The notes below the pieces were generated by a model. That model did not search any database. It was not told the origin of the DNA and saw only the letters and a program-made list of their open reading frames with translations. Shown one piece after another: positions 10,746 through 29,136 of a stretch of 64,000 nucleotides of DNA (its first letter is position 1; each line of letters begins with the position of its first letter). A program made the position numbers and the translations under genes. Source of the DNA: Sphingopyxis sp. YR583 (lineage in GTDB: Bacteria; Pseudomonadota; Alphaproteobacteria; Sphingomonadales; Sphingomonadaceae); NCBI RefSeq assembly GCF_900108295.1, contig NZ_FNWK01000005.1, positions 1 through 64,000 on the forward strand, read 5' to 3'.

Positions 10746-10746
10746 A

Positions 10747-11751
10747 TCAGACCTTGACGTTCACCATGCGCCGGATGGCAACCACCCCCATTGCATACCA
10801 CACCAGCATTAGGGGAAAGCCGATGTAGAAGATCGGATCACCCGCTACATCGAGATAGAATGACGGGTTCAGAATGAAGAGCATGACGAATGTAAAAATC
10901 GGCAGGCCTGTCAGCATCAGTCCGGTCATCCGACCCTCCGACGATAGCGCGCGAACCTTGAGGTATAGCGAGGCGCGCTCGCGAATGACCTTGGATAGAT
11001 TATCGAGGATCTCAGCAAGGTTGCCGCCCGTTTCATTCTGCACCGACAATGATACGACGAACATTCTGAGGTCATCGAGGTCCCACCGCTCTGCCATATC
11101 GTTCAAAGCGTGCGTCAGATCAGCACCGTAAGCGATTTCGTCGGTCACCAATCCGAACTCCGAACCTATCGGGTCTTCCATTTCCTGAGTCAGAAGTTCG
11201 AGCGCGCCGGCAATCGGGTGACCCGAGCGGAGTGAACGGACAAAGATATCAAGGGCTACGGGAAATTGTTCCTGCATCCGTTTGCGCCGCCTCTGGGCAA
11301 GGAGCGAAATCACCATCAGTGGCACTCCGACGGCAGCGGCGGCAGCAAATGCGAGGATCAACTGGATGACGCCCGATGTAATCGGATAGGCCGCACTCCA
11401 TACCGCCATGGTCACGATCAGCACCAGAATTGCGAACAGCGCGGCCATGCCCGTAGATACTTGCCAAGCTGTCCAAGGCACTGCGGCCATCGACAAGTTG
11501 CGGCGGAAGCTGAAATAGAATCTGCCCCAGGGGTTTGCCGCATCACCCAGCAACAATGGATCATTTTTGCGCAGAATGTTAACGAGGTTCTCGCGCGTCG
11601 TGCCGCTGGCGATCATCTTCAACCGCTTGTTGACGGCGCCGACATGAGCACGCCGCTCGATGGATGTACGCAGCACCACCTGCATAATCAGGAAAACAAA
11701 CGCAAAGATCGCCAGCAGCACCAGAAATCTGGCGACTTCCCCGCCGATCAC
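10747..11751 (-). CDS. tadB: Tad inner-membrane platform protein TadB (GspF family)
   Basis: A 334-residue protein with one N-terminal helix (FLVLLAIFAFVFLIMQVVL), a helix pair near 100-145, a GspF domain (FPVALDIFVRSLRSGHPI; VQNETGGNLAEILDNLSKVIRER) and C-terminal helices around 255-320. The start is GTG 11751, overlapping the cpaF stop by four bases, which suggests translational coupling. The partner is TadC, encoded next. Confidence 0.92.
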   Translation of the reverse strand: MIGGEVARFLVLLAIFAFVFLIMQVVLRTSIERRAHVGAVNKRLKMIASGTTRENLVNILRKNDPLLLGDAANPWGRFYFSFRRNLSMAAVPWTAWQVSTGMAALFAILVLIVTMAVWSAAYPITSGVIQLILAFAAAAAVGVPLMVISLLAQRRRKRMQEQFPVALDIFVRSLRSGHPIAGALELLTQEMEDPIGSEFGLVTDEIAYGADLTHALNDMAERWDLDDLRMFVVSLSVQNETGGNLAEILDNLSKVIRERASLYLKVRALSSEGRMTGLMLTGLPIFTFVMLFILNPSFYLDVAGDPIFYIGFPLMLVWYAMGVVAIRRMVNVKV

Positions 11752-14326: not shown

Positions 14327-14327
14327 G

Positions 14328-14942
14328 TCAATTCGAACCTGCTCCGTCCCCGTCTTCCATCGTCAGCGTATAGGAAAAATCGGGGAGACTGATATTGCCG
14401 CCGAAGAGCAGAATCGGCGAGAAGTTCAAGTCGGTTAGTCTTACCGTGACCAGCGGCGAGATGTCCATGCCGTCAGGATTGCCCGCAAAACCGAGGCCGG
14501 AGCCACGGTATTCGACGACAAGATTGTCCGATTGGATTGCCGGCATGATCTGCTGCATGCGGGCCAGCAGGTTGGTGAAGGCGGTCGCGTTGCGGGTGGT
14601 CCCGGGATGGGGGCTGGTGCCGACACAATTAGTCTGGTTACAGACCAGAGAGCCCAACGCACCGGCGGGAATCCGGTCGCCTTGCGTCAGCGTCGCTCCG
14701 CCCACGGATGTGCCGACATAACTCGCGGTGGACAGGCTCTGCGCCACCGGATCGGTCACCACCGCCATGCGCGCGCCGATCTGTGTCGCCTTCTCGCCGC
14801 GGTTCACCTCATAGAGGAACCGCCCCGCGTCGATCAGGCCGATGAAGAACAGCAGGAAAAGCGGCAGGATCAACGCAAACTCCGCCGCGCTGGCACCCCG
14901 CCCATCGCGCGCGATGCGGCCAAGGAAGCCTAGCACCTTCAT
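14328..14942 (-). CDS. TadE/G-like pseudopilin
   Basis: A 204-residue protein with a TadE N-terminus: a short basic stretch, then GRGASAAEFALILPLFLLFF as the conserved helix with the Glu of prepilin-like proteins. The rest is predicted periplasmic and includes two Cys (VCNQTNCVG) that could form a disulfide. TadE/F pseudopilins are cleaved by CpaA and help pilus assembly. ATG 14942 overlaps the preceding stop (ATGA). It is the second of two adjacent tadE-like genes, which differ clearly beyond the N-terminal helix. Confidence 0.85.
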   Translation of the reverse strand: MKVLGFLGRIARDGRGASAAEFALILPLFLLFFIGLIDAGRFLYEVNRGEKATQIGARMAVVTDPVAQSLSTASYVGTSVGGATLTQGDRIPAGALGSLVCNQTNCVGTSPHPGTTRNATAFTNLLARMQQIMPAIQSDNLVVEYRGSGLGFAGNPDGMDISPLVTVRLTDLNFSPILLFGGNISLPDFSYTLTMEDGDGAGSN

Positions 14943-15442
14943 ATGCCCATCGCCGCTGCTTGCTGGCTGGCATTCAGGGAGAAGGTCGAATCGATTACCC
15001 CCAACCCGCCGAACAGCGCGTTGTAGTCGACGCTTGCGGAGATGGTAATCCGCGGCGGATTTCCCTTGTCCCTGTAAACGCCTAGATTGGAAAGGTCATG
15101 CGGATCGCAAGCCACGTCGATCTGGATGTCGGCAGCCGCCCAGCCGGGCACCCGCGGCGAGCCGCCGGAGATTGCTCCCGTTCGGGTGATTTCGCGAATA
15201 GCGGCAATTGCCCCCGCATCGACAATCGGGGTGGTTCCGTTGCAACCGATCGCAGTGAAGGGTTGGCGGCTAGCAAAGCGAGCACCGTCGCGAACCCCTT
15301 TCACCACCTGATGCTCGTTATAGAAATAATAGCCAAGTTCGACCGAGCCAAACAGCAGCACAACGAGAAAAGGAAGGATCAGCGCCATCTCGGCGGCCAC
15401 CGCGCCGCGCTTGCAGGACAAAAGGGAAGGACGCGGCATCAT
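14939..15442 (-). CDS. tadE: TadE-like pseudopilin
   Basis: A 167-residue protein. The N-terminus SCKRGAVAAEMALILPFLVV is the TadE motif with Glu in the helix, followed by VKGVRDGARFASRQ, typical of the family. The periplasmic remainder has a Cys pair (GCNGT, DVACDPHD). ATG 15442 overlaps the stop of tadG (ATGA), and a second ATG three bases on would serve as well. Its closest relatives should be TadE of Tad loci; the exact TadE/TadF label is uncertain. Confidence 0.85.
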   Translation of the reverse strand: MMPRPSLLSCKRGAVAAEMALILPFLVVLLFGSVELGYYFYNEHQVVKGVRDGARFASRQPFTAIGCNGTTPIVDAGAIAAIREITRTGAISGGSPRVPGWAAADIQIDVACDPHDLSNLGVYRDKGNPPRITISASVDYNALFGGLGVIDSTFSLNASQQAAAMGI

Positions 15443-17037
15443 TTGACAAGGTGCGGCACGTCACGGCGGATTACCGAACCTGCCGTCTCGCCCGCCGCCC
15501 CCGACGTCGTTTCGCCGACGATTTCGACGTAAATCTGATCCTTCTTGGTCCTGCTCCCCCGATCCAGTGAAGGCTCCACCAGAAACACGTCAATCCAGCG
15601 CCGCACCGGCACCCCGGTCGAATTACCCCGGACATTGTTCCCGACGCAGTTGACCACCGCAACGGACAGGCGCCGGCGATCCGCGGTCGTCGCGGTCGGG
15701 GTCGACGAGGCACCGCACTGCGGCCGCCCATAGGAGCTAAGGGATCCGCTGATGGCCCGCGAGCCAAGCACTACTTGTCCGTCAACCGGACTGCCCGCTA
15801 GCGCAGCGCCGATCTCCCACTTGTAGACCTCGTAGCGCGTCGCGCTGGCCGACAGGCCGGTATTCGTCCGCCAGCGGGACGTTCCGTCGCCGTTCGTCCA
15901 CGCCGGATAGTTGGTCCGGAAATAGGCGTCACGATCCCAGGCGCCGTTGCCAAAGGGGCCGCCCGCGCATGAACCGTTCTCCGAAACAGCATGGCACATG
16001 TCGCGTGGGTGCCCCATGACCGTCGGTGTCTGATTTAATGGAAGTGGGTTGTTGGGATCGACAGGCTGATAGGCCCCGCTTGGCCAGCGCCAGCCTTGAT
16101 TGTGAAGCTTGCAGGCTTGATTCCCGCTGAAGCTGTTCGGATGAACCGCGTCCTTCACGCTATTGACCGATGCCGGGCAGTTGCCACCGCTCGGGCAGGC
16201 ACCATCGTAGATATCGAAGCGCATGTTGATCGCGTCGGCGACGCTGGCGACATTGCCCGGCTCGCTGTCAATCGTCGTATTGCCCGATTGAGAAATGCAG
16301 GTGCCCGGCGTCGAATCCCACGCAAACGCCTTCATCAGGTCGGGCGTGCCACCGCCCGTGCCGGGAAAGGTGTCGACAAACCCAAAATTTCCCGGAGCCC
16401 AACTGCTCCCCCCGCCGCCCTTGGCAAGCAGGCCGACGCCTTTATAGGAATTGGCGTCGAAGTCGGCGTTAACATTACCGCTCGGGGGTTCGCTGGGATT
16501 ACACAGCATCAGCGGAGGCGTCCGGCAAAGCGCGGAACCAACGCCGGCCACCGCCTGCGCGAAGATATCGCCTCGCAACGCGCCGACCACCGGCGTCAGG
16601 GCATAATTCGCGGTGCGGGTATTCACCTGCACGCAAACGAAAGCCGCTTGGGCAAACGCCGTTTCCGCCAGCGCACCCGCAGCTCCGCAAGTTTCGGCCT
16701 GCGCCTGGTTGGCGTAGAAACGCACTGTCAGGTCGGACACGTCCCGTCCCTGTCCGTCGTTGGCGAAACGACTTTCGTTACCGATTAAGAGCGTTGCGGC
16801 CGCGTTGCCACGGCTTATCGCGCCCGCTCGCCGGTCGAGTTGCGTCGCGGCCGCGAGTGCCGCCTGGTCTGCGGCATTCTGCAGTTCGGTGTCCATCGCC
16901 GCCAGGCGAGCATAATCGAACGCAATACCTGCCACCGCGACCAGCGCCGGCAGCGCCAGCGCATAGAGCGCAGCGGCGGCCGCGGTTTCGTTACGCCAAA
17001 AGCTGGACTGGCTGCGCTTCATTTCCGGCTCGCTCAT
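15439..17037 (-). CDS. tadG: TadG-like pilus assembly protein
   Basis: A 532-residue protein with the N-terminal TadE/G-like segment (NETAAAAALYALALPALVAV, then AGIAFDYARLAAMDTELQNA and ADQAALAAATQLDRR). The large Gly/Asn/Cys-rich periplasmic part carries at least twelve cysteines, suggesting disulfides. A von Willebrand A domain, present in some TadG, is not obvious. TadG is thought to anchor or stabilise the pilus at the envelope. It follows the small lipoprotein gene by 16 bases and overlaps tadE. Confidence 0.85.
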   Translation of the reverse strand: MSEPEMKRSQSSFWRNETAAAAALYALALPALVAVAGIAFDYARLAAMDTELQNAADQAALAAATQLDRRAGAISRGNAAATLLIGNESRFANDGQGRDVSDLTVRFYANQAQAETCGAAGALAETAFAQAAFVCVQVNTRTANYALTPVVGALRGDIFAQAVAGVGSALCRTPPLMLCNPSEPPSGNVNADFDANSYKGVGLLAKGGGGSSWAPGNFGFVDTFPGTGGGTPDLMKAFAWDSTPGTCISQSGNTTIDSEPGNVASVADAINMRFDIYDGACPSGGNCPASVNSVKDAVHPNSFSGNQACKLHNQGWRWPSGAYQPVDPNNPLPLNQTPTVMGHPRDMCHAVSENGSCAGGPFGNGAWDRDAYFRTNYPAWTNGDGTSRWRTNTGLSASATRYEVYKWEIGAALAGSPVDGQVVLGSRAISGSLSSYGRPQCGASSTPTATTADRRRLSVAVVNCVGNNVRGNSTGVPVRRWIDVFLVEPSLDRGSRTKKDQIYVEIVGETTSGAAGETAGSVIRRDVPHLVK

Positions 17038-17053
17038 CGCTACCGCTCAAACG

Positions 17054-17329
17054 TCATTCCGGCCCGGATTCCGCGCCCGCGTTGGTCGTGCGGATGCTGT
17101 CGGGCTGCTTCACGGCGTCTGTACGATAACGCTCGATCGCCTTTTGCGCCGTGTCGCCGCTGGATGTCATCGGCGCATCATATACCGGGTCCGGGTCTAT
17201 AACCTGCGCCATCATCGTCTGCCGGTTGGCTTCGCCGAACTGCGAATCCCCCGGCTGTTCATGGATCGAGGGGATGCTGGCGCAGCTCCCGATCAGCGGC
17301 AGCAGCGCCAGGCAGGCCAGCTTGCGCAT
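17054..17329 (-). CDS. small lipoprotein of the Tad locus (CpaD position)
   Basis: A 91-residue lipoprotein: MRKLACLALLPLIGSCAS gives signal peptide and lipobox (IGSC). The mature part contains DSQFGEANRQTMMAQVIDPD and AQKAIERYRTDAVK, a pattern I associate with short pilus-assembly lipoproteins and the end of CpaD/RcpB. It begins four bases after the cpaC stop, exactly where cpaD usually lies, but canonical CpaD is roughly 200 residues. The longer frame from 17488 is rejected because it runs through cpaC and has no signal peptide. It is either a minimal CpaD or an unrelated replacement. Confidence 0.75.
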   Translation of the reverse strand: MRKLACLALLPLIGSCASIPSIHEQPGDSQFGEANRQTMMAQVIDPDPVYDAPMTSSGDTAQKAIERYRTDAVKQPDSIRTTNAGAESGPE

Positions 17330-17333
17330 GGGT

Positions 17334-18728
17334 TCAATAATCATAGTCGCCCTCCTTCGACAGGGGCTTCGGATCATAGGCTTCGCCGAGCAGCACCGAC
17401 GAGGCCGCATCTGGATCCGCCACGCGGTCGGTTGGCATCCGCACCTGATCGGGTCGGATCGGCTGCACCAGCCGCGGCGTGACCACAATCAGCAGCTCGG
17501 TTTCTCCCTTCTGGAACTCGGTCGAGCGGAACAGCGAGCCGATGATAGGAATGCTGCCAAGCAGTGGAACCTGGTTGATGGTGGTGCGGAAATCACGCTG
17601 CAAAAGGCCGGCGATCGCAAAGCTCTCCCCGTCGCGCAATTCCATCGTGGTGCTCGCCCTGCGGGTCTGCAGGCCCGGAATGGAAATACCGTTGAGCTGG
17701 ATCGACGCCGCCGGATCGATCGAGCTGACCTCCGGCTCAACCTTGAGGTTGATGGTCCGGTCACCCAGCACAGTCGGGGTGAAGCCCAGGCTGACCCCGA
17801 ACGGCTTGAACTCGACGGTCACGCTTCCGATGCTACCCTCGCCGCCGCCACCCGAGCGGCCCGACTGCACTACCGGGATCGGAAATTCGCCGCCAGCAAG
17901 GAATGAGGCCTTTTCGCCCGACAGGGCGATCAGCGTCGGTTCGGCCAGCGTCTTGGCAAAGCCCTTGCTCTCAAGCGCGTTGAGATAAGCCTCAAAATCA
18001 ATACCGAGTAGACTGAAGGTATCGCCGAAGATGCCAAAGCCATTGGCAACGCTCCCTACACGGAGCAGTGCGCTGCCATCCGCGGGATCCGGCGTCAGCG
18101 ACGATCCAGGTCCCGTCACGCCGCGAAACGACCCGTCGTTCATAAAGGCGCGCACGCCGATATCCTCGCCAACGCTACGCTTTACTTCGGCGAATTTCAC
18201 CTCGAGCATGACCTGTTGGCTGGCGCCGAGCCCTATCATGTTGACGACTTTCTCGCCCGCATAGGTCCGCGCGAGCTGGACGGCGCGGTCGATCATGCCG
18301 GGATCGTTGGCAAGTCCGGTCAGGACCAGCGAGTCGCCCGAAATCTGTGCATCGATCTTTGCGTCAGGGATCAGCCGGGCAACCTGCTGGCGAAATCCGT
18401 CCGCATCGGGTCCGACCGCGACATCCATCACCACCAGCACGCGCCCGCCGGCATCATAGAGTGTCAGGCTGGTCGTGCCCATGCCCTTTCCGAGCACATA
18501 GACCGAGCGGTCGGTTAGCGGCACGATGTCGGCAATCGTGGAGCTTCCCACCATCGCCTTGGCGATCGCGCGGTCGGCGGTAACGATCTGGCTCTTATTG
18601 ATCGGCACTTCCAGCGTGCCGCCGTGCAGGCCGCCATCGGCCGATTGCGCCGAGGCGGGCGCGGTTGCGCAGGCCAAGGCCAGCGGCAGCGCCATCTGAA
18701 TGGCGCAGCGGAAGAGATTAATAGCCAT
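17334..18728 (-). CDS. cpaC: Tad outer-membrane secretin
   Basis: A 464-residue secretin (CpaC/RcpA). Signal peptide to about residue 28 (ATAPASAQ); N-terminal pilus-sorting domain (VPINKSQIVTADRAIAKAMV; VLGKGMGTTSLTLYD); a BON-like segment near 100-150; secretin domain from about 170 with ALSGEKASFLAGGEFPIPV and the C-terminal GRSG...; PLLGSIPIIGSLFRS and ELLIVVTPRLVQP. It forms the ring through which the Flp pilus crosses the outer membrane. The start overlaps cpaB by 11 bases, with GGGGG about nine bases before. All hallmark motifs are present. Confidence 0.94.
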   Translation of the reverse strand: MAINLFRCAIQMALPLALACATAPASAQSADGGLHGGTLEVPINKSQIVTADRAIAKAMVGSSTIADIVPLTDRSVYVLGKGMGTTSLTLYDAGGRVLVVMDVAVGPDADGFRQQVARLIPDAKIDAQISGDSLVLTGLANDPGMIDRAVQLARTYAGEKVVNMIGLGASQQVMLEVKFAEVKRSVGEDIGVRAFMNDGSFRGVTGPGSSLTPDPADGSALLRVGSVANGFGIFGDTFSLLGIDFEAYLNALESKGFAKTLAEPTLIALSGEKASFLAGGEFPIPVVQSGRSGGGGEGSIGSVTVEFKPFGVSLGFTPTVLGDRTINLKVEPEVSSIDPAASIQLNGISIPGLQTRRASTTMELRDGESFAIAGLLQRDFRTTINQVPLLGSIPIIGSLFRSTEFQKGETELLIVVTPRLVQPIRPDQVRMPTDRVADPDAASSVLLGEAYDPKPLSKEGDYDY

Positions 18729-19617
18729 AGCGCTGCACCCCCACGAAGCTAGTTTCGGTCCCGCGAACGACGGTCATGCCGGGGCCGCTGGGCCGTGGCG
18801 GCGCCATCACCTGTTTCGGAGGCGCCGCCACGGCGTCGCCCCGCATCGGCGGCGCGGGCGACCCGGCGCTCCGCTTCGCGGGAATGAAAAGGCCGCCGCC
18901 AAGTTCACGGCTGGTAACAGCGCGCCGCGCGCCCATTCCTGGATCTTCTACGTTGCGCAGGGCCAGGCTGAGCCGCCCGATCTGGGTAGCAAGCGCGATC
19001 CGCTGCGCGCCTTCGGGATGGACCATCAATGTCGCGGTCTTGCTTTCGGTGGCGTTGGTATTCTGTTCGCCAGTGCGCAGATCGACCGCCAGCACCTGGA
19101 CATTGTCCAGCACCACGGTGGTCATCTTGTCATCGTTGGACGACCCGTCACCGGGGATCTGCCGCGTCAGCAGCACGTCGACGACATCGCCGGGCGTAAC
19201 AAAACCGGCCACGCCGCTGACGGCGTCGATCGGCACGGTGACGGCGCGCATGTCGGGCGGGATATTGGCCGACAGCACCGCGCGTTTGGAAATTCGTGAT
19301 AGCAGGATGGGCTCGCCCCGCGCGATCGGACGGATGGCGACCTTGCCCTCAGCCAGCAACCGCTGCGCCTCGCCATCGCGATAGGCGCCCTGCGGCACCG
19401 AATCGGCAGGCCAGGAAACCAGCCGGACATTGGCGCTCGAAATTGCGGTGCCGAAAGCCAGGTCCTGATCGGCAACAGCGATGCGCGTCAGAACGCGTTC
19501 CTCCGTCACCTGCTCCTGCTGTCGCTCGACCCCGCTGAACCAGGCGTTCGCAAAATAAACCGCGATGAGGCCGAACAATACGGCCGCGCCGATAATAAGC
19601 AGATTGCGCCGTTCCAT
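18718..19617 (-). CDS. cpaB: Flp pilus assembly protein CpaB/RcpC
   Basis: A 299-residue protein anchored by one N-terminal helix (NLLIIGAAVLFGLIAVYFAN), with a SAF domain at about 45-110 (VAVADQDLAFGTAI-like; RGEPILLSRIS) and the RcpC-type segment after it (AVTVPIDAVSGVAGFVTPGDVVDVLLT). It is thought to work with the CpaC secretin, perhaps binding peptidoglycan. The C-terminus is Pro/Arg-rich and variable. It is the first large gene after the pilin, 82 bases downstream of it. Confidence 0.92.
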   Translation of the reverse strand: MERRNLLIIGAAVLFGLIAVYFANAWFSGVERQQEQVTEERVLTRIAVADQDLAFGTAISSANVRLVSWPADSVPQGAYRDGEAQRLLAEGKVAIRPIARGEPILLSRISKRAVLSANIPPDMRAVTVPIDAVSGVAGFVTPGDVVDVLLTRQIPGDGSSNDDKMTTVVLDNVQVLAVDLRTGEQNTNATESKTATLMVHPEGAQRIALATQIGRLSLALRNVEDPGMGARRAVTSRELGGGLFIPAKRSAGSPAPPMRGDAVAAPPKQVMAPPRPSGPGMTVVRGTETSFVGVQRYGY

Positions 19618-19649
19618 GCCGCCCCCATAGTGAAACGATCCGCAGCCAA

Positions 19650-19680
19650 GGGCCCACCCCGCGTGACACGAGGTGGGCCT
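19650..19680 (-). terminator. hairpin between flp and cpaB
   Basis: GGCCCACC and GGTGGGCC form an 8-9-base-pair stem 20 bases after the pilin stop, with no T-run. Such a hairpin could stabilise the short flp transcript or partly stop transcription, so that pilin exceeds assembly proteins. That effect is inferred. Confidence 0.5.
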
Positions 19681-19699
19681 ATACAGGCTGAGCTACATA

Positions 19700-19888
19700 T
19701 TAGGCGCAGGCTGTGGACGTACCTTCACGTACGCATTCGCCGGCATCGCTAAGGGCTTCGCCGATTGCACCGCCAAGAGTGATGGCGCCTGCAACGATTG
19801 CGACGCCAAGAACGGCGAGAATCAGCGCATATTCGGCCGCCGAAGCGCCCGATTCGTCCGCAAGGAACGTCTTCAGAAAGGTCTTCAT
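19700..19888 (-). CDS. flp: Flp-type major pilin
   Basis: A 62-residue Flp/Fap prepilin. It has a short leader ending DESGASAAEYALILAV, with the Flp processing site before the conserved Glu-Tyr pair, a hydrophobic helix and a short polar tail with two Cys (GECVREGTSTACA). CpaA would cleave it and CpaF/TadBC would polymerise it. GGGGGA lies about eight bases before ATG. It is the first gene of the Tad locus. The tail cysteines might form a disulfide in the pilus. Confidence 0.93.
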   Translation of the reverse strand: MKTFLKTFLADESGASAAEYALILAVLGVAIVAGAITLGGAIGEALSDAGECVREGTSTACA

Positions 19889-20347
19889 GTTACATATCCC
19901 CCAATGGGTCCCGTTCCCTCCCCCCGGAGGTCACGGAAATGACACCTAGGCTCCGGCCTCGATTTCCGGCTGGCCCGCTGCTTGGGATGATGTCTTTCGG
20001 AAAACCGGTGCGACCCGTGATGATCCGGCTTTGCACTGGACTCCGAAAAGCAGCCCCCCTTGCAAGCCCGGTCATCTTTTCCCGAATTGCAACGACAGTC
20101 AATCGCAAATGCAACCAGCCGCGATTGCGTTCCGTAATGGCACTTTATAAAGCAACGGAGTTAACCCAGCTTGCATTCCGGCTCCTCCCGGCCGACAGCG
20201 GCCCGAAGCGCGATGCGCGTCAGTCCAGTTGATCGGAAGTTGACCCAGCGTCCGAAGGCGAAAAATGGCGAAATCGCGCGCGATTCGTTTCACATGAGGC
20301 AACCGTCGCGCGATCGATTTACATATGGGAGGCACGATCCGGTTCTG
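19889..20347. other. intergenic region with pilin promoter
   Basis: About 460 bases separating divergent flp and the membrane-protein gene at 20348. It must hold the promoters of both. I see no clear -35/-10 pair, operator or small gene. AT-rich patches lie near 20150-20160 and 20320. Confidence 0.4.
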
Positions 20348-21166
20348 ATGTCACAGGCTGCGAAACTTTCAGGCTTAAAGGCGGTTTTGCACCGCGCGGG
20401 AAAACGTCTGGGCGACCGGTCGCGCGGTTTCGTGCTTGTTATCCAACGGCGCATCGAGACCGCGATTCCGTTTTGGTTGCTTCTGTTCGGCATTGCTGCG
20501 GCAGTGCGAGTCGGTTCGGCCGCCGGGCCGAGTCGCACCGCAAATGATCATGTTCAGCTTTTTATGTTCTATGGTCTGATCGCCCTTGCCCCGATTGCGG
20601 GATATCGCATTGCCATGGCCGCTTTCCCCTCCAATCTTTTGCCCGAACCGACCGGCATTCGCCTGGCCTTTTATGGTCGCTGGCGACGGCTCGATCCGCT
20701 TGCCGCCCGCGCGCATCCAGCCTTCGGCCCGTTCGGTTTCATGGCGTCGCTGCTGCTCGGCATGTTGCTCAACGTTCCCGTACGCAGCTTCGAATTCCTG
20801 CTGGCCGTTCCTGCGGTAAGCCAGCACGGCCCAGCCTGGGCTACGACCATTTTCCATATGATGGCGTTCGACGTGATCGCGATGAACTTTCTGTACGCAG
20901 CCTGCTTCGTGGCGGCTCTGCGTTCGATTCCGCTGTTTCCACGCATGTTGCTGCTCGCCTGGTCGATGGACCTGCTGTTGCAAGTGGCGATCGCGTATCG
21001 GGTCTCCGACGCTCCGCATCTGCCCGCGCCGATCGCCGCGGCGCTGGGCGAACTGCTCAGCGGCAATGTCACTAAGGTGCTGATCAGCATGGCGATCTGG
21101 ATACCTTATCTGCTGCTTTCGGAGCGGGTCAATGTCACCTATCGCTCGCGGGTCGCGGCGGACTAG
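20348..21166 (+). CDS. multi-pass membrane protein, possibly DUF2569
   Basis: A 272-residue protein with about six hydrophobic helices (for example PFWLLLFGIAAAVRV, FMFYGLIALAPIAGY, MASLLLGMLLNVPV, MAIWIPYLLLSERV). The end, IPYLLLSERVNVTYRSRV, resembles the end of DUF2569 proteins. The start is uncertain: ATG 20348 has GGGAGG about 15 bases upstream, and in-frame ATGs at 20294 and 20213 give longer forms. No catalytic motif is seen. It lies 26 bases before the PAP2 gene, so the two are probably co-transcribed. Confidence 0.75.
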   Translation: MSQAAKLSGLKAVLHRAGKRLGDRSRGFVLVIQRRIETAIPFWLLLFGIAAAVRVGSAAGPSRTANDHVQLFMFYGLIALAPIAGYRIAMAAFPSNLLPEPTGIRLAFYGRWRRLDPLAARAHPAFGPFGFMASLLLGMLLNVPVRSFEFLLAVPAVSQHGPAWATTIFHMMAFDVIAMNFLYAACFVAALRSIPLFPRMLLLAWSMDLLLQVAIAYRVSDAPHLPAPIAAALGELLSGNVTKVLISMAIWIPYLLLSERVNVTYRSRVAAD

Positions 21167-21192
21167 GAAGGCTTTTGGGGGAAATCATTGTT

Positions 21193-22242
21193 ATGTCGGG
21201 ACCGGCCTCTTCACTTCGCCGCGGCCTTACAGAAGATCGCGCCATTCTGACCGGGGGCCTGATCATCTGGGCCCTGTTCATGGGCCTGCTGGCAACGAAG
21301 GGGGTCAACGGGTTCAGACCGGTCGGCGTTATCGCAAACCTGATCCTGTATCTCTCGGCCTTGCTGTTCGCCGTCGTGGTCGTGATCGCGGCCCGGCTGT
21401 GGCGGCATCGCCCTGACCGTCCGCTGGCTTTTCTTGGTCAGCTGTTCACGACGGACGATCTTGGCGTCAGGCTCGCTCGCGGCGCGCCGATGCTGATCGC
21501 GCTGGCTGTATTCATGCCCGCCTTCTCGGCCATGAAAGGCGCCATACCGCTTTTCAACGCCTATGTCTGGGACGATAGCTGGATCGCGCTCGACCGGGCG
21601 CTGCACGGCGCCGACGCCTGGAGGTTGCTGCAACCGATCGTCGGCTATCCGATCGTGAGTTCCGCGCTTTCCATTCTTTATCATCTATGGATTCTGCTGA
21701 TCTATGCCGGTGGTATCTGGTTCTGCTTTTTCGTGGACGATCGCAAACTGCGCGCCCGCTTCCTGATCTCCTATTTCGCATGCTGGACCCTGATCGGCGT
21801 GGTCATGGCGACGGCGCTGGCTTCAGTCGGCCCTTGCTTTCTGGCGCCGATGCTGGGCGATTCAAGGTTCGAGGAACAGATGGCATATCTGCGGCACGCC
21901 AACACCCATTTCCCAATAATGGTGCTGCAGGTGCAGGACCAGCTCGCCGCATGGCATCAGGCCGGAAACGAAGGGCTGGGCAGAGGCATCAGCGCGATGC
22001 CGTCGATGCACGTATCGCTGGCTTTCTTGTTCTTTCTCGCGATGCGGCATGTTTCAAGGCGTGCAGGCCTGTTCTTCGGCACCTTCTTTGTCGCCATCCT
22101 GATCGGTTCGGTTCATCTGGCCTACCACTATGCCGTTGACGGTTACGTCTCGATCGCGGTCACAGGCTTGCTATGGGTCCTCGCGGGCCAATTTGTGCGG
22201 CGCAGTGCCGCGGCAGGCCAACGGTCGCCGGCAATGGCCTAG
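21193..22242 (+). CDS. PAP2-superfamily membrane phosphatase/transferase
   Basis: A 349-residue membrane protein with about seven helices and PAP2 motifs in the inositolphosphotransferase (Aur1/Ipt1) arrangement: SAMPSMHVSLAFLFFLAM and later HLAYHYAVDGYVS, which supply the two catalytic His and the Asp. Such enzymes act on lipid phosphates or transfer phospho-head groups at the membrane. GGGGGAA sits about eight bases before ATG 21193, favouring it over the upstream TTG. The gene probably forms an operon with the preceding membrane protein. The substrate is unknown; sphingolipid or phospholipid modification is plausible in a sphingomonad but unproven. Confidence 0.85.
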   Translation: MSGPASSLRRGLTEDRAILTGGLIIWALFMGLLATKGVNGFRPVGVIANLILYLSALLFAVVVVIAARLWRHRPDRPLAFLGQLFTTDDLGVRLARGAPMLIALAVFMPAFSAMKGAIPLFNAYVWDDSWIALDRALHGADAWRLLQPIVGYPIVSSALSILYHLWILLIYAGGIWFCFFVDDRKLRARFLISYFACWTLIGVVMATALASVGPCFLAPMLGDSRFEEQMAYLRHANTHFPIMVLQVQDQLAAWHQAGNEGLGRGISAMPSMHVSLAFLFFLAMRHVSRRAGLFFGTFFVAILIGSVHLAYHYAVDGYVSIAVTGLLWVLAGQFVRRSAAAGQRSPAMA

Positions 22243-22478
22243 GCAGCGGGGATTCGGCGCAGCAGTTTTCGGGCAACAATCAACGGGACCACGACCGAAA
22301 GCGCGATTCCGCCGAGCGAACAGAGGGCGATCCAGATCGCCATCCAGGTGCCTCCCGCTTCGTACATCGCGAAAAGCACGGGCACGGCGAGGATAAGCCC
22401 GCGAACCTCGTTCAAGACGAGCAGCACCGCTCCAGCCTTCAGGGCAAGGCCGACGAAAGAGGAAAGCGTCTGGGTCAT
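22239..22478 (-). CDS. small two-helix membrane protein
   Basis: A 79-residue protein, MTQTLSSFVGLALKAGAV onward, with two hydrophobic segments (residues about 12-38 and 45-70) and a basic end (ARKLLRRIPAA). Its stop overlaps the end of the convergent PAP2 gene by four bases. The longer frame from 22712 is rejected because its N-terminal part is not protein-like and crosses the next gene's start. No ribosome binding site stands out. The function is unknown. Confidence 0.6.
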   Translation of the reverse strand: MTQTLSSFVGLALKAGAVLLVLNEVRGLILAVPVLFAMYEAGGTWMAIWIALCSLGGIALSVVVPLIVARKLLRRIPAA

Positions 22479-22680
22479 GTCGGCGATTTGCCGCAAATTG
22501 GTTAGAATTTGATAAACCCGGAAAGAGGTTGGCCGTTCTGCTTTGCGATCAAAAGGAAAGGCGCCAGTGGACTGAGGCGGAAGCACATCGAAGCGATCCG
22601 AAACCGCCGAATGATATTGCAAGTTTACCTCTGGTTGCTTTTGGCCGATATTGCCGCCGTCGAGAAAGGGGCGTTGAGCG

Positions 22681-23298
22681 TTGACAGAGCCGAAAACGGA
22701 ATTCGGAGCCATCGCGTTCTACTTCGCGTTTGGGATCGCAATGACGGCCCTCCTGTGCGTCTCGTACCTGACGCTGGTGCCCGACAGTCTCACTGCCCGG
22801 GACCGTTTTCGTAAGTCCGTCAGTGTCGATTTGCTTCCCCCTACTCCTTTCAAGCACGAGGAGGCGGCGCAGTTGCGTGCCGATGCCGCCGCCCTGCCGA
22901 CGGACGCCAGCCACATTTTCGCCAGAACGGAAATTCCGACTGGCGCGGGGCATGATGCCCGTTCCACGCATCCCGCCGACCTGGTGCGCGTCAAGTTCGA
23001 CCTGTCCGATCCCTATTCATGGGCCGGCGAAGGCGGTTCGGCGATCGATATGCGCAAAGAACTGCGCGTCAACGGTGTGGATATCGGCCCTGCCGCGATT
23101 CGAGTCAGCGAAGATTCAACGCTGTCCATCGCACGCGACAAGCTGAATGAAATTCTGGTCAGGCTCGGTCGCAACGATGTGGCCCGACGGCTTGGCGGAC
23201 CCCGTTCCGGTGGGTTCGTCAGCTTCGAAGAGATCCGTCGTCGGGGCGTGGAGGTACGTTATGACGCGCCGTCCGATCGTGTCGTGCTGGCTATTTGA
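22681..23298 (+). CDS. hypothetical membrane-anchored protein
   Basis: A 205-residue protein with one N-terminal helix (IAFYFAFGIAMTALLCVSYL) and a soluble, charged remainder ending GVEVRYDAPSDRVVLAI. Start TTG 22681 has GAAAGGGG nine bases upstream and lets the whole helix be made; ATG 22741 would cut it. The sequence has protein-like composition but no domain I know. It precedes the PilZ-XRE gene by 120 bases, so co-transcription is possible but not shown. Confidence 0.65.
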   Translation: MTEPKTEFGAIAFYFAFGIAMTALLCVSYLTLVPDSLTARDRFRKSVSVDLLPPTPFKHEEAAQLRADAAALPTDASHIFARTEIPTGAGHDARSTHPADLVRVKFDLSDPYSWAGEGGSAIDMRKELRVNGVDIGPAAIRVSEDSTLSIARDKLNEILVRLGRNDVARRLGGPRSGGFVSFEEIRRRGVEVRYDAPSDRVVLAI

Positions 23299-23418
23299 GG
23301 AGCGGATGCACATCGCTTGATACCCTGATCGACCAATCCCCAAGCGTTTCCGGGTTGCTTCTTTACTGATACTTTACGGCTTTCGTTACAGATTCCGTTT
23401 CACGATGGAGAAACGGCG

Positions 23419-24159
23419 ATGACGATTGGAGCAAGACTTGAAACGAGCGATGTCGCCAACCTGCGCGGCTATCCTCGGCACCTGCTGCATCTTTCGATAA
23501 CGACCTCCAAGCCAAATGGGCCATCGGCTCAAGCTCTGATCCATAACATCTCGGAAACCGGTCTCTTGCTGGAGAGCAGCGCAAATTTGGAGATCGGCGA
23601 AACCCTTGCGATTCTCTTGCCTCATCGCGAGGCGACAACCGCGGTCGTGATGTGGGCCAGCGACGGGCTCTCGGGATGCAAGTTCACGACACCGCTGAGC
23701 CGCTCGGCACTCAGTGCTGCGCTGCTGCAAAGCGCGCCCGCGCATGACGGGCAGTTCGCTCAGCGGCCAACCCATGCCGGCCATGGAGAAGGGACGCCCG
23801 GTTCTGCCGAGGCTTTAGAGACATTCGGTTCGAGGCTGCGGCGGCTGAGGCTGGCCCGAAGCTTCACCCTGACTGCCCTCGCGAAAGCCGTTGGCGTGAG
23901 CAAGCCGACATTATGGAAGTGGGAAAATGACGACGTGCGTCCGCGCCAAAAATCGTTGGATAGGCTGCGCGCTACACTTGGCGTGTCCGAGCGTGAGCTG
24001 TTGACGGGAAAATGGGTGACGGTAGAGCAACCCGTCACCGTTCCGATCACACCGTCGCTCCCCTCCTCGTTAGCCGGAACCGTAGAGGAATGCAAAGAGC
24101 GCATCGCTGAATTAGCGGGAACACATGCGAATAATGTTACAATCACACTTCGCTATTGA
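23419..24159 (+). CDS. PilZ domain fused to XRE-type helix-turn-helix
   Basis: A 246-residue protein in two parts. Residues about 14-105 form a PilZ domain with both c-di-GMP-binding motifs: R16xxxR20 (RGYPR) and N43xSxxG48 (HNISETG). Residues about 134-190 are an XRE/Cro helix-turn-helix (FGSRLRRLRLARSFTLTALA, then VGVSKPTLWKWENDDVRPRQ). The tail ends VEECKERIAELAGTHANN. The order suggests a c-di-GMP-responsive transcription factor. A convergent paralogue of its DNA-binding half follows 36 bases on. Targets are unknown; the nearby Tad pilus and two-component genes are candidates. Domain calls are firm; ligand binding is inferred. Confidence 0.88.
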   Translation: MTIGARLETSDVANLRGYPRHLLHLSITTSKPNGPSAQALIHNISETGLLLESSANLEIGETLAILLPHREATTAVVMWASDGLSGCKFTTPLSRSALSAALLQSAPAHDGQFAQRPTHAGHGEGTPGSAEALETFGSRLRRLRLARSFTLTALAKAVGVSKPTLWKWENDDVRPRQKSLDRLRATLGVSERELLTGKWVTVEQPVTVPITPSLPSSLAGTVEECKERIAELAGTHANNVTITLRY

Positions 24160-24195
24160 CCCAAGCCGCAAAGCCGAACGTGTCCGAATCGGGAC

Positions 24196-24582
24196 CTAAA
24201 TCTGAATGGTAATCGCAATATTGTCCGCGTCGGTTCCTGCAGCGTCGGCAATTTGTTCCTTGCAAGCGCTGATCACCTCGCTCAATCGCTGCGAAGATGC
24301 ATGGACTGGCCTTGGCTTTACTTCCTGTCCGTCCCCCCGACCAAATATTAGTTCTTTCTCCGACACTCCAAGGATAGAGGCGACCGCTTCGATCGATCTC
24401 TGACGTGGACGCACCACGCCACTTTCCCACTTCCATACCGTTGGTTTGCTCACCCCCACCAGACGCGCAAAGGATAGAAGCCCTATACGGCGTTGCTCAC
24501 GCAGTCCCCGCAATCTTGCCCCAAAGGCAACCTGATGCGGAAAAGGGTCGCGGATCGTTTCAGTTTGGTACTTGCCTTGCAT
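24196..24582 (-). CDS. XRE-family regulator, paralogue of the PilZ-XRE protein
   Basis: A 128-residue DNA-binding protein. Its HTH (FGARLRGLREQRRIGLLSFA, VGVSKPTVWKWESGVVRPRQ) and tail (VISACKEQIADAAGTDADNI) match the C-terminal half of the PilZ-XRE protein at nearly every position, but the PilZ domain is absent. The two genes converge with 36 bases between stops. It could compete for the same DNA sites without c-di-GMP control, or form heterodimers. It also lies divergent to the histidine kinase gene, so it may control that operon. Confidence 0.85.
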   Translation of the reverse strand: MQGKYQTETIRDPFPHQVAFGARLRGLREQRRIGLLSFARLVGVSKPTVWKWESGVVRPRQRSIEAVASILGVSEKELIFGRGDGQEVKPRPVHASSQRLSEVISACKEQIADAAGTDADNIAITIQI

Positions 24583-24733
24583 GCTCGCTTGCCCTTCGTG
24601 AAGGGCTGTGTTTTACCAATTATGCAACAACGTTACCTGATCAGCTCGTCAGGTTTCGCAAAATGCAGCCTGATAACTCGGCTGTGCAATCGGTTTCGCC
24701 TTCGCCGAAGCCGCCTAAGCGGGGATTTGGCCG

Positions 24734-26029
24734 GTGGCAGAGGGAGATAGGCAGCTATTCAGGCTTCGATCCGAGCTCGAGCGAGGGCATGGTTCGTGGA
24801 TTGCAGTGCTGGTAACCTATGCTTTCGGCGCAGTAATTCTCTTCGCGCTGGTGCAGTTCCTAATTCTTTTCGAGCGTTACGACACTGATGCTCATCGCGC
24901 TGGCTTGTATGCGCAGGATACCGCGGCCACCGCGCAACTTCTTCACGGGTTGAACAGCGGGGTGTCTCGGGACGAGATGATCGAAGCCATCTCGCGCTAC
25001 GAGGTGCGCTACGTTGGCGATCCGGCCGTCGGCATGGCACGTCCCGACGCATTGGCTTCCCGCGATGCTCCAACCGCGCTTTTGGAAGCACATCGGCAAG
25101 GAAAGTCGCGCACGACCATCATCGCGCTTGCAAAGGCGTGGGCCGACGCTGAAATGGCGGCCGCCGCGAGAGCCAATCAACATCTGGAGCGGTCAAACCT
25201 TGCGGTAAAGGGCTATGCGGCACTGCTAGGCGTCGCCGTGATTCTTTGTGTATTCGTCGGTGGTTTGCTCTTCTTGAGACGATCGCGGCACCTTGAGCAT
25301 TTGCTTCAGCAGTGGGCTGTGGAACTTGACGAGGTCGATGCTTCCAGACGGCTATTCTTTGCGAAAGCCAGCCACGAACTCCGCACTCCCGTAACAGCGA
25401 TCAGGGGCGAGGCCGAGATGGCGCTGGCAGATGCAGAGGACATCGAGGCGATCCGTCAATCGCTCGAGCACATCAACGCGACCGCGAAATTCCTTAATCA
25501 CCGAATCGAGGAGATGATTGGTATCGCGCGTGCATCCGACGGAAAATTACACCTAGACGCTGCACGTGTTGATCTGCGCACCATCGCAGAAGACGCGGTA
25601 GCGGATGCCAGTTCTTTCGCCGCGTCGGTTTCCGTTTCGATCCAGATAACCATGCCTAACAGCCCTGTCGATGTTGTCGGCGACGCCATCTGGCTGAAAA
25701 GGGCGCTTCTCGCAGTGATAGAGAACGCTCTGAAATTTTCTCCGATGGGCGGACAAGTGACCCTTACTCTTGCAGAGAACAACGGAATGGCCGAGATCAC
25801 CGTGACTGACAACGGTCCAGGGGTCATGCCCGATGAGTTGCCGTTGCTTTTCGACGCCTATTATCAAACCGACGCTGGTAAAGCGCGTGGCGGTAGCGGC
25901 TTGGGCCTCGCGATGACACGATGGGTCGCCGAACAGCACAACGGTCGCGCCATTGCCCGTAACATCGGATCGTGGCGCCGCCCCGATGGCTGCGCCGTGA
26001 CGGTCGCAATCAAGCTGGAGCGAGCATAG
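24734..26029 (+). CDS. sensor histidine kinase
   Basis: A 431-residue membrane kinase. Two helices (about 22-46 and 160-181) frame a helical periplasmic domain of about 113 residues with no named sensor fold. The HisKA box FFAKASHELRTPVTAIRG contains His214. The ATPase domain has the N box (VIENALKFSP), G1 DNGPGV and G2 GGSGLGLAM. The GTG start at 24734 has GGGGA about ten bases upstream. Its stop shares one base with the regulator's GTG. Kinase-first gene order is less common for OmpR-type pairs. The signal is unknown. Confidence 0.9.
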   Translation: MAEGDRQLFRLRSELERGHGSWIAVLVTYAFGAVILFALVQFLILFERYDTDAHRAGLYAQDTAATAQLLHGLNSGVSRDEMIEAISRYEVRYVGDPAVGMARPDALASRDAPTALLEAHRQGKSRTTIIALAKAWADAEMAAAARANQHLERSNLAVKGYAALLGVAVILCVFVGGLLFLRRSRHLEHLLQQWAVELDEVDASRRLFFAKASHELRTPVTAIRGEAEMALADAEDIEAIRQSLEHINATAKFLNHRIEEMIGIARASDGKLHLDAARVDLRTIAEDAVADASSFAASVSVSIQITMPNSPVDVVGDAIWLKRALLAVIENALKFSPMGGQVTLTLAENNGMAEITVTDNGPGVMPDELPLLFDAYYQTDAGKARGGSGLGLAMTRWVAEQHNGRAIARNIGSWRRPDGCAVTVAIKLERA

Positions 26030-26724
26030 TGAATGTCCTCTTGGTCGAAGACGATGTCGGCATCGGACGTTTTATCAGCCATGGTCTCAGGGCTCGCGGC
26101 CTTTCCGTACAGTGGGAACGCGTGGGTAGTCGGGTGCAAAACCTGGCAGCCTCCGGTCGCTTCAATGCCATCATTCTCGATCTCCTGTTACCCGACAGCG
26201 ACGGGCTCGATCTCTGCCGTGCAATCCGCAAGGCGGAACTCGGCATTCCCATCCTGGTTCTGACCGCTCGAACCGGCCTCGATGACAGGCTTGACGGCTT
26301 CTCGGCCGGAGCGGACGACTATCTTGGCAAACCATTTGCGTTCCTTGAGCTGGTAGCCAGAGTGAAAGCCCTTCTCGCACGCGACCAGCTGCGTAAGCCG
26401 GATCCCGTCGTGATCGGCCCGCTCCGTATCGATGCCGACGTCGACGTCGCAACATGGGATGGAAGAACGATCGAGCTAGGGGGGCGCAGCTTCGCCATGC
26501 TGTTGGCGCTCGCCCGGGCGCGCGGCGGCGTAATAAGTCGAGACGAACTGCTGGACGAAATTTGGGGCGAATCTATCGTTACCGATAACGCCTTGGACGC
26601 TTGTGCCAGTGCGCTTCGCCGGAGCCTGTCGGCGGTCACCAACCGTGCGATCGTCGCGGCTAAGCGGCGGGAAGGCTATTCTTTGCACATTGCAGATGCC
26701 GGGACCGACGGTGGAGAGTCATAG
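26029..26724 (+). CDS. OmpR-family response regulator
   Basis: A 231-residue regulator: receiver domain 1-115 with acidic pair Asp8-Asp9, phosphoacceptor Asp51 (AIILDLLLPDSDG) and the Lys of YLGKPF; winged-helix DNA-binding domain about 130-222 (LGGRSFAMLLALAR; VISRDELLDEIWGE; RREGYSLHI). The start GTG 26029 overlaps the kinase stop; the longer frame from 25972 lies inside the kinase. It is the cognate partner of the kinase. Its 3' end overlaps the convergent DUF6118-like gene by six bases. Confidence 0.92.
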   Translation: MNVLLVEDDVGIGRFISHGLRARGLSVQWERVGSRVQNLAASGRFNAIILDLLLPDSDGLDLCRAIRKAELGIPILVLTARTGLDDRLDGFSAGADDYLGKPFAFLELVARVKALLARDQLRKPDPVVIGPLRIDADVDVATWDGRTIELGGRSFAMLLALARARGGVISRDELLDEIWGESIVTDNALDACASALRRSLSAVTNRAIVAAKRREGYSLHIADAGTDGGES

Positions 26725-27222
26725 AATCAGTCGAAGGCCGGAGTAATACGACCTCGCCGGACCGCGCAGGCGCGGGCATGAGTGTTGGCTTTCTCCTACG
26801 GCCTTGGGGATGGCCGCTACGATCGCGACAACAACCAACCAGTACTTCTGCTGCTGCGCGCTGTTCGCCGATGCAGTGACCGCGGTGATGCCGCGCGCCG
26901 CGGCCTCGAGCTGCTGCTGCGCATTGTCCCATGCGCGGTGGTCATCCTGGCGCACGCTCTTGCCCGCCGCCTCAATCTGACCAGCGATCAACTGCGGCGA
27001 CAGGGCCAGCGCCGGGCGATCTTTCATCGCCGCGATTTCCTTGGCGATCGCGTCGCAGCGATCATGGATGCGTCCAAGCTCCGGGCTATAGTCGCGCGCA
27101 TGGAGCTCCTGCTGGCGCGCGGCAAAGCCATCGACGGAAGCCGTCAGGCCGGCAAGCCGCTGTCCCATCGCATCGAACGCCTGATCGGCGGAGAGGATGT
27201 CGGGGGGTGTGTCCTGTGTCAT
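26719..27222 (-). CDS. truncated DUF6118-like protein of an integrative element
   Basis: A 167-residue protein. Residues 1-135 (DILSADQAFDAMGQRLAGL; DYSPELGRIHDRCDAIAKEI; RPALALSPQLIAGQIEAA) look like DUF6118 proteins encoded beside relaxase genes in alphaproteobacterial conjugative elements. After YWLVVVAIVAAIPKAVG the frame turns into an unlike tail (SCPRLRGPARSYYSGLRLIL), suggesting a deletion near 26,790 removed the true C-terminus. It follows the integrase-relaxase chimera by nine bases, as DUF6118 genes follow traA. It is probably non-functional; the family name is from memory. Confidence 0.6.
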   Translation of the reverse strand: MTQDTPPDILSADQAFDAMGQRLAGLTASVDGFAARQQELHARDYSPELGRIHDRCDAIAKEIAAMKDRPALALSPQLIAGQIEAAGKSVRQDDHRAWDNAQQQLEAAARGITAVTASANSAQQQKYWLVVVAIVAAIPKAVGESQHSCPRLRGPARSYYSGLRLIL

Positions 27223-27231
27223 GGGGCAACC

Positions 27232-28821
27232 CTAAAGTCCAAGTCCGCGCGAACGCGAGGGGACGAGCCACTGCTGGAGATCCTGAGACAGCGGTTTCTT
27301 GCTCATGGCGTCCAGACCGAGCTGGGCGCGGCGATTCTGGAGCAGCGACTCGAGCTGCGGGTCGCGGTGCAGGCTCCTGGCCATATCCCCAAGCTGCTTG
27401 CCGGCCCGCTCAGCGCCGACATGATCATGGGCGCGTTTATGCTGCTGGAGCCGTTTCGCGGCTCCCTGCCATTCGGCAACGAACCGGTCGGCGCGGGCCT
27501 GCGTATCGATGCGAAGCGCCCGCTCGGCGCGCATCGCCTGAACCGCCCGCTCGGTACGGCCGCTCGCCGCCTCGGCGGTGAGCGCCGGGTCCCTCGCGAT
27601 CGCGGCGCCAAGATCGCGCGCACCGTCGGGCCGAACCCCGTCGAGTTCCCTTGCCGCCCTGGCCATCGCATCCTTCTGATGGATGGCGACACGCTCGTCC
27701 CAATAGCGTCCGCGATTGTAAATTCCGCGGATCACGTTTGCATCGGCATGCGCGAGCGAACGCTCGATCGCATCGGAATGCCACTTTCCGCTTTCGTTGA
27801 GCAGCGTGGAAGCCGTCGTTCTGAGGCCGTGCGCCGTCACTTCACCCGTGGCATATCCCATCCTACGGAAGGCTTGGTTCATCGTGTTCTCGCTCATGGG
27901 CCGACGCGAGGTGTGGAAGGCGGGGAAGACAAAACCCTTGGGACCGGTCAGGTCGTACAGAGTCCTAAGGTAGTTAAGCACCTGCCGCGATAACGGCACG
28001 GCATGGGGCCGCCGCATTTTCATGCGCTCCAGCGGCACGGTCCAAACAGCTTTGTCGAAGTCGATCTCGCCCCACAACGCCTGTCGCAGTTCGCCCGGCC
28101 GCGCCATTACATGTGGCGCGATCTGGCAGGCGAGGCGGGTGATGGCATTGCCGGGATAGCTGTCGATCGCGCGGAGGAGTCCCCCTACCGCGCCAGGTTC
28201 GAGCAACGCCGCATGGTGCGTCACGCGAGGCGTAATTAGTGCCCCCTGCAGGACTGCAGTTGGATCAGACTCGCCCCTGCCCGTTGCCACAGCGTAGCGA
28301 AAGATGCGGCTGGCGAATGATCGCGCGCGGCGCGCGGTCTCGTGCTTTCCGCGCGCCTCGATCCTCTTTAATGCTGCAAGTATCTCGATCGGTTTAATGT
28401 CGGCTACCGGCATGCCCGCAATGGGCTTGAGCTGATCCAAAAGCCAAATGGCTTTTGTCGTGGTTGCCTCAGCGCGGCCCTCCGCAACCGTCTTTTCGAT
28501 ATATTCCTTCGCAAGATCACCGAAGGTGTTTGCGGCCTTGAATTGCGCGACGAGCTTATCGCGCTTGCGATCGGCAAGCGGGTCGATGCCATCGCGTAGT
28601 TTTCGCCGCGCATCATCCCGCAGTTGCCTCGCCTCCGCCAGCCGCGCTTCGGGATAAGCACCCAAGGCGATCCGGTTCGTCTTTCCGAGAAAGCGATATT
28701 TAAACCGCCAAAGCTTCGCCCCACTCGGTCGCACTTCCAAATAAAGGCCCCTCCCGTCGGTCCGGCTGTAGGGTCTACTTTTGGCCTTCAACGACCGGAT
28801 CATAACATCAGTAAGAGACAT
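27232..28821 (-). CDS. tyrosine integrase fused to the tail of a TraA-type relaxase
   Basis: A 529-residue protein. Residues 1-90 are the arm-type DNA-binding domain (LYLEVRPSGAKLWRFKYRF), about 100-190 the core-binding domain, and 200-378 the catalytic domain with R241, H331-x-x-R334, H358 and nucleophile Tyr368 (GIYNRGRYW), all present. Family members end near 400. Here the frame continues for about 150 residues (ARDLGAAIARDPALTAEA; RADRFVAEWQGAAKRL; MARSLHRDPQLESLLQNRRA; SRSRGLGL) that look like the C-terminus of TraA/MobA relaxases. The gene is oriented away from the 3' end of tRNA-Leu, its likely attachment site. The junction is near 27,690. See findings. Confidence 0.85.
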   Translation of the reverse strand: MSLTDVMIRSLKAKSRPYSRTDGRGLYLEVRPSGAKLWRFKYRFLGKTNRIALGAYPEARLAEARQLRDDARRKLRDGIDPLADRKRDKLVAQFKAANTFGDLAKEYIEKTVAEGRAEATTTKAIWLLDQLKPIAGMPVADIKPIEILAALKRIEARGKHETARRARSFASRIFRYAVATGRGESDPTAVLQGALITPRVTHHAALLEPGAVGGLLRAIDSYPGNAITRLACQIAPHVMARPGELRQALWGEIDFDKAVWTVPLERMKMRRPHAVPLSRQVLNYLRTLYDLTGPKGFVFPAFHTSRRPMSENTMNQAFRRMGYATGEVTAHGLRTTASTLLNESGKWHSDAIERSLAHADANVIRGIYNRGRYWDERVAIHQKDAMARAARELDGVRPDGARDLGAAIARDPALTAEAASGRTERAVQAMRAERALRIDTQARADRFVAEWQGAAKRLQQHKRAHDHVGAERAGKQLGDMARSLHRDPQLESLLQNRRAQLGLDAMSKKPLSQDLQQWLVPSRSRGLGL

Positions 28822-28885
28822 CGACTCAACTCCTGCAAGCAGGCCTTGGCCAGCGTCGGATCATCGACACGACATCTCGGAGATG

Positions 28886-28940
28886 AATGGGGCCACCGGA
28901 AATTGATGTTGGGGCCATCGCCCTATCCGGTGGCCCCATT
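28886..28940. repeat. 15-base inverted repeat with internal third copy
   Basis: AATGGGGCCACCGGA at 28886-28900 is the exact inverse of TCCGGTGGCCCCATT at 28926-28940, with a 25-base spacer that contains a further TGGGGCCAT. It lies between the integrase start and the tRNA. Repeated GGGGCCA words resemble the multi-repeat ends of IS21-type elements, but could equally be integrase arm sites or an operator. Confidence 0.6.
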
Positions 28941-29051
28941 TCCACTGAGATCGAGTGAAATATTCTCGGACGTCAAAAGACAAGACCAAGGAGAAAATGG
29001 CAGATTTCCGCCGTTTTGTCGATGGCGGTGGGTCGTCATGAGAACGGAAAG

Positions 29052-29136
29052 TGGTGCCCCTGGCCGGACTCGAACCAGCACTCCTTGCGGAACTCGATTT
29101 TGAGTCGAGCGCGTCTACCAATTTCACCACAGGGGC
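29052..29136 (-). tRNA. tRNA-Leu (anticodon CAA)
   Basis: The minus strand reads GCCCCTG at the 5' end pairing with CAGGGGC at the 3' end, discriminator A and encoded CCA. The anticodon stem-loop CTCGA-CTCAAAA-TCGAG gives CAA, and TGGTTCGAGTCCGGCC forms the T arm. A long variable arm marks it as a class II leucine tRNA, with 85 bases including CCA. Its 3' end faces the integrase, the usual arrangement at a tRNA attachment site. Confidence 0.95.

Follow-up and report, generated by a model that had tools for sequence, protein, structure and literature searches.

What does an open reading frame represent when it runs, without a stop, from a tyrosine integrase into the end of a conjugative relaxase: a working chimera, or the scar of a deletion? 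The question is raised by a locus in Sphingopyxis sp. YR583, analysed here as a stretch of 64,000 nucleotides (contig NZ_FNWK01000005.1, positions 1 to 64,000; hereafter the window), for which an original prediction made from the sequence alone had proposed the joining of an integrase gene to the 3' end of traA within an ICE. Here we argue that the fusion ORF is, with a probability of roughly 0.85, a microhomology-associated scar, left by an internal deletion in a relaxase-bearing island that is integrated at tRNA-Leu(CAA) and produced by recent decay, and not a selected chimera. The coordinates of the features are collected in Table 1.

Table 1. Features of the int::traA' locus and of its island (window coordinates unless a contig is named; G000 is the YR583 assembly, with contigs numbered from C1)
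Feature	Position	Strand	Remarks
int::traA' fusion ORF, 529 aa	27232..28821	-	ATG to stop, 0 internal stops
Integrase-derived part, codons 1-382	27676..28821	-	arm, core-binding and catalytic domains; without native C-terminal WWS segment
Junction int/traA	27676..27690	-	CATCAG at 27681-27676
traA-derived part, end of Ti-type TraA relaxase	27235..27681	-	82.6% aa identity to Root154 TraA 839-987
DUF6118 gene remnant, 167-aa ORF	26719..27222	-	homology to 234-aa Root154 gene
tRNA-Leu(CAA), integration target	29052..29136	-	
attL core GAGTCCGGCCAGGGGCACCA	29052..29071	-	attR copy 19/20 at G000:C2:36018-36037
Window share of the ~65-kb island	1..29051	.	remainder probably G000:C2:1-36037
Window island genes			PEP-CTERM genes; serine recombinase (4080-5858); Tad pilus genes (8640-19617); PAP2; histidine kinase; response regulator

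The first part of the fusion carries the Pfam domains Arm-DNA-bind_3 (residues 3-87), Phage_int_M (100-194) and Phage_integrase (214-370). The residues R241, K268, H331, R334, H358 and Y368, which we take to be the R-K-H-R-H-Y catalytic set of a tyrosine integrase, are all present and are invariant in an alignment of 10 sequences; R241, H331/R334, H358 and Y368 had been named at the outset, and the tail motifs quoted with them are likewise all found in the translation. The integrase domain had been called complete, which holds for its arm, core-binding and catalytic domains but not for its end: 14 native residues are kept after Tyr368, and the native C-terminal ∼22 residues (WWSDYLD...), which include the WWS segment, are replaced by 147 TraA residues.

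Beyond the integrase part (aa 1-382) the reading frame stays open through a further ∼147 aa, which constitute the end of a TraA. The NCBIfam profile PRK13889 (TraA relaxase) matches the second half of the fusion, up to profile position 991 of 992, with an E value of 5.4e-36, so that the likeness to TraA is not due to chance. The score of 123.9 bits lies below the whole-protein cut-off of 1015 bits, which is expected since the fusion carries only a fragment of TraA; the MobA/MobL nicking domain and the helicase are absent from it by Pfam, and the C-terminus alone matches the TraA profile. The best traA relative of the tail is 83% identical, and the fusion end matches the TraA of Sphingopyxis sp. 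Root154 (988 aa) with 82.6% identity over 149 residues, after which DUF6118 follows. The relaxase identity originally assigned to the tail is borne out by the profile and Root154 matches. Structure prediction yields an all-helical tail with a pLDDT of 87, and its last 30 residues contain 4 K/R against 2 D/E. The adjoining DUF6118 gene is itself truncated: its homology to the Root154 gene stops at 26811, leaving ∼30 terminal residues of the ORF unaligned, which indicates that the 3' part of the gene has been lost.

Searched separately, the two halves of the protein have different relatives, the tail matching relaxases; the outcome named in advance as contradicting the prediction, a second half shared with integrases of many strains instead of relaxases, did not arise. 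Residues 379-529 as query retrieved 116 proteins, many with relaxase or helicase domains and several with none, and P0144 alone among them carries integrase N-terminal domains. Tail relatives were found at 115 loci in the genome collection, of which 80 were kept; the tail ORF aligns to Root154 TraA in all 80, the alignment extends well in front of the tail in 79, and an integrase in the tail's ORF occurs in none. Plasmid matches to the tail number 132 records, and among the 20 listed, 17 are annotated as TraA, 2 are featureless there and 1 is an unannotated record. Other arrangements of the tail were seen among the proteins retrieved: behind a PF00872 (transposase) domain in P0146, with a MobA/MobL domain and no helicase domain listed in P0160 and P0218, and continuing into DUF6118 in P0170.

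From the integrase side, a search with the fusion gave 7962 matches from 7997 candidates scored (those with most shared words). The best 120 of the 7962 are 396-434 aa in length and cover 72-77% of the query, with a top identity of 96%, and the TraA tail is matched by none of these 120; nor is it present in the six integrase alignments that extend past residue 440 among the matches listed (G020, G003 twice, G038, G055 and G023). The WWS segment is kept in all 120 best-listed homologues, directly after the point at which the fusion switches to TraA, and its fuller form, (H/Q)WWxDYLD, fits 95 of the 120. At the DNA level, a 301-base probe across the junction was searched in 80 genus genomes, with up to 9 candidate places scored per genome; 57 of the 80 match it somewhere, and a match spanning the junction occurs in the YR583 genome and in none of the 79 others. 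The full-length architecture was found in none of 79 other genus genomes, 80 tail loci and 120 best-listed proteins, and the natural int::traA join of this kind is, as far as these sequences go, without a second case in what was searched. Among the papers listed in literature searches, judged by titles and abstract openings, none deals with a tyrosine integrase that has acquired a relaxase tail in nature, the nearest report being of an engineered domain exchange involving a relaxase and the AAV integrase (PMC6049929).

The alignments place the switch of homology from int to traA at 27676-27681, close to the breakpoint near 27,690 that had been predicted. In blastn comparisons with six relative loci, the integrase-side homology stops at 27676 in four and at 27677 in one; in the sixth (G038) it stops at 27853, and the G038 integrase match is itself incomplete. 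Homology to intact traA begins at 27681. The sequence over the join is GTCGCCATCCATCAGAAGGATGCG in the window, GTCGCCATGCACCAGTGGTGG in the two closest unfused integrases (G019 and G027) and CTTCATCAGAATGATGCG in the Root154 traA. The CATCAG of the join is common to the traA relatives, while the two closest integrases have CACCAG; in both int and traA, CAYCAG falls in the same phase and specifies His-Gln. The join lies 27 kb inside the contig.

An intact arrangement is present in the same genus. The integrases of G019 and G027 are 95% and 96% identical to that of the fusion and are unfused, and G027 carries a full-length traA on the same contig as its integrase. In G019, int and traA lie unfused on one strand of one island, at the same tRNA-Leu(CAA) as in the window, which agrees with the prediction that an internal deletion had joined int in phase to the 3' end of traA. 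The G019 locus has 90.5% DNA identity to positions 27676-30724 of the window, tRNA and flank included; its island extends from the tRNA 3' end at one edge to a 19/20 repeat ∼61 kb off at the other. A 970-aa traA ORF and a DUF6118 gene of 239 aa in this island share the strand of int. About 8.3 kb of the G019 arrangement is missing from the window: the 3' end of int, DUF736, ArdC, the genes for a nucleotidyltransferase-HEPN protein and a MucR-type regulator, and the beginning of traA. When this stretch of G019 was searched in the YR583 genome, only paralogous pieces of 68-74% identity on C1 and C4 and three ∼40-base pieces of 86-89% were found. The sole MobA_MobL domain in the genome belongs to another TraA, 62% identical to that of Root154. 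The 870-codon frame with this domain, at C1:1405267-1407877, was considered as the other half of a reciprocal exchange and rejected, as it represents a different TraA (62% to Root154 TraA 4-783) with other end residues.

We propose that the ancestral island resembled that of G019, with int and traA on the same strand ∼8.3 kb apart, and that a short, imperfect stretch of microhomology (..GCCATGCACCAG.. in int, ..CATCAG.. in traA) gave rise to the deletion, through recombination or slippage. If the content of G019 is taken as a guide, the deletion would have removed all the genes and gene parts named above, including the first ∼838 traA codons, and would have joined the two genes in phase, an outcome with a chance of 1 in 3. 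The fusion gene would still be transcribed from the retained upstream region. As the relaxase domain is gone, the island would no longer be able to mobilise itself, and as the conserved C-terminal segment of the integrase has been replaced, recombinase activity is probably altered or lost.

The island appears to be split by a contig gap. C2:1-36040 largely follows the order of the left part of the G019 island, one segment being inverted, and the start of the window continues C2, which suggests a single island of ∼65 kb. The att core (allowing ≤2 mismatches) has two sites in the YR583 genome, at the tRNA and at C2:36018-36037 (1 mismatch, the same 20 bases as the G019 attR); the two island ends marked by these direct repeats lie on two contigs. 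Window position 1 and C2:1 are both contig ends inside the island; they align collinearly with neighbouring portions of the island in G019 and probably represent one locus interrupted by an assembly gap. Pfam scans covered 20 of 27 window ORFs (DUF6118 was also scanned) and 8 of 28 C2 ORFs, and the scanned ORFs include polysaccharide and PEP-CTERM genes, Tad pilus genes and a serine recombinase. The latter (4080-5858) is a large serine recombinase with an HNH-associated repeat, and its G019 homologue adjoins attR. A small conserved gene at 6210-6647, which lies beside DUF6118 in G019 and Root154, is here 20 kb off in the opposite relative orientation, pointing to further rearrangement or insertion.

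The original prediction took the parent element for an ICE. No VirB4 (PF03135) was found in the YR583 island, the own-genome matches lying only on C1 and C3, and none of the four VirB4 matches of G019 lies in its island; the parent is therefore better called an IME-like island than an ICE. Coupling-protein (PF02534) matches are likewise absent from the YR583 island, and in this genome occur only on C1 and C3.

Two features of the genome favour decay. The truncation of the neighbouring DUF6118 gene counts for a decay scar, and a second in-frame chimera of transfer genes occurs at G000:C1:550788-551975 (L148:16789-17976, -), where a 396-codon frame joins the N-terminus of a TraG coupling protein to the C-terminus of TrbG/VirB9; this TraG::TrbG fusion favours decay by internal deletion over selection for int::traA'. 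A TraG that lacks its N-terminal third (PRK13876 235-650 of 667) is encoded at G000:C3:68526-69902 (L147:13527-14903, -).

Sequence evolution was assessed for both halves. The omega of the tail against Root154 is 0.24-0.25, the median for 641 pairs among 80 other tails being 0.21 (range 0.05-0.88), and the truncated DUF6118 neighbour has an omega of 0.15. Against seven more distant tails the window tail gives 0.59-0.69; since Root154 gives similar values with the same seven (0.45-0.70), the high omega reflects distance and not fusion. The dN to 10 distant tails is slightly lower for the window tail than for Root154 in 10 of 10 comparisons, and polarised residue changes in the tail number 4 on the window branch, 9 on the Root154 branch and 12 unresolved. 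The tail has thus neither speeded up nor decayed, which fits a recent deletion, or else a tail under continuing constraint. In integrase codons 1-380, synonymous/nonsynonymous changes are 42/13 on the window branch, 16/1 on the G027 branch and 8/2 unresolved (Fisher p 0.16). The frame open over 529 codons, the 42/13 integrase changes and the undecayed tail are points against a scar, and the selection tests give no date for the fusion.

The foremost alternative is a working chimera, a natural Cre-TraA. In it the TraA tail would either serve as a signal for type IV secretion, so that the integrase reaches the recipient, or tether it to the coupling protein and thereby to the machinery of transfer; a tether to transfer proteins had also been envisaged in the original prediction. 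Intact catalytic residues and a tail without decay speak for it, as does the region C1 1405-1432 kb of the genome, where a TraA and VirB4 occur together with a partial match to a coupling protein. There are also published precedents: a VirB/VirD4 system translocates Cre that is fused to the tBID2 domain of a TraA relaxase (PMC6509941), and VbhT, a naturally occurring Fic toxin fusion whose tail derives from TraA, is secreted in the course of conjugation (PMC5675462). However, the island itself shows neither VirB4 nor coupling-protein matches, a BID domain in the tail is at best putative, as Pfam and further searches did not recognise one, and in P0144, the one further integrase-TraA join encountered, the catalytic domain is missing. 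The loss of the WWS segment, universal among the 120 best-listed homologues, also argues against this possibility. In Tn1549 Int, dimerisation is under the control of the swapped C-terminal helix, and removal of the entire helix compromises function, yet short truncations raise activity (PMC5871717). The recombinase activity of the fusion could be lost, lowered or deregulated. We consider a working chimera very unlikely, and equally so its most specific form, in which an active integrase with a relaxase-derived secretion tail would have arisen by VbhT-like terminal reassortment and, travelling with the transferred DNA or docked on it, would catalyse integration in the recipient.

It is highly improbable that the join is an assembly chimera of two distant loci: the microhomology at the join is short and the join is known from the assembly alone, but the genome is assembled in 5 contigs, in which no second copy of the fused integrase and no other part of the fused traA was found, and G019 has both parents in one island, in matching order and strand. 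An ancestral family of long integrases, with a C-terminal extension that merely resembles TraA, has next to no probability, as its support is limited to a single ORF, the extension is unmatched in the 120 best-listed integrases, and in five of the six loci compared homology stops at 27676-27677.

The deletion scar therefore remains the preferred reading, and the locus would show, at the level of single bases, that a recombinase can acquire a relaxase tail through a single internal deletion within a mobile island. Such fusion events are a proposed source of secreted effectors like VbhT. If the hybrid were active, it would be a natural link of site-specific integration with protein translocation; more likely, it is a record of decay in an island that has lost self-mobilisation.

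The fusion can be compared with several known systems. With the P4-type (Arm-DNA-bind_3) integrases of sphingomonad islands it shares three domains, a tRNA 3'-end target and up to 96% identity, whereas those integrases keep the native C-terminus with WWS where the fusion has TraA residues. With Ti-type TraA (PRK13889/NF010464) it shares the last ∼147 residues, ∼83% identical in Root154, and the DUF6118 gene that follows, but it is without the MobA/MobL nickase and helicase domains of that protein. P0144 (a metagenome protein of 318 aa, on a 2183-base contig) also joins integrase N-terminal domains to a TraA tail, but involves another integrase, another joint point and no catalytic domain; it is either an independent event or an assembly artefact. 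VbhT (Bartonella pVbh; Fic toxin with a TraA BID domain) is likewise a mobile-element protein placed on a TraA C-terminal tail by rearrangement (PMC5675462). It differs in its N-terminal enzyme and its BID tail; for int::traA' the BID identity of the tail is only putative, no T4SS was found in the island, and no sign of selection after the join is seen. Finally, the engineered Cre-TraA proteins of translocation assays (PMC6509941, PMC5675462) resemble the fusion in placing a tyrosine recombinase before TraA sequence; they are products of design, whereas int::traA' is natural and has a truncated integrase C-terminus.
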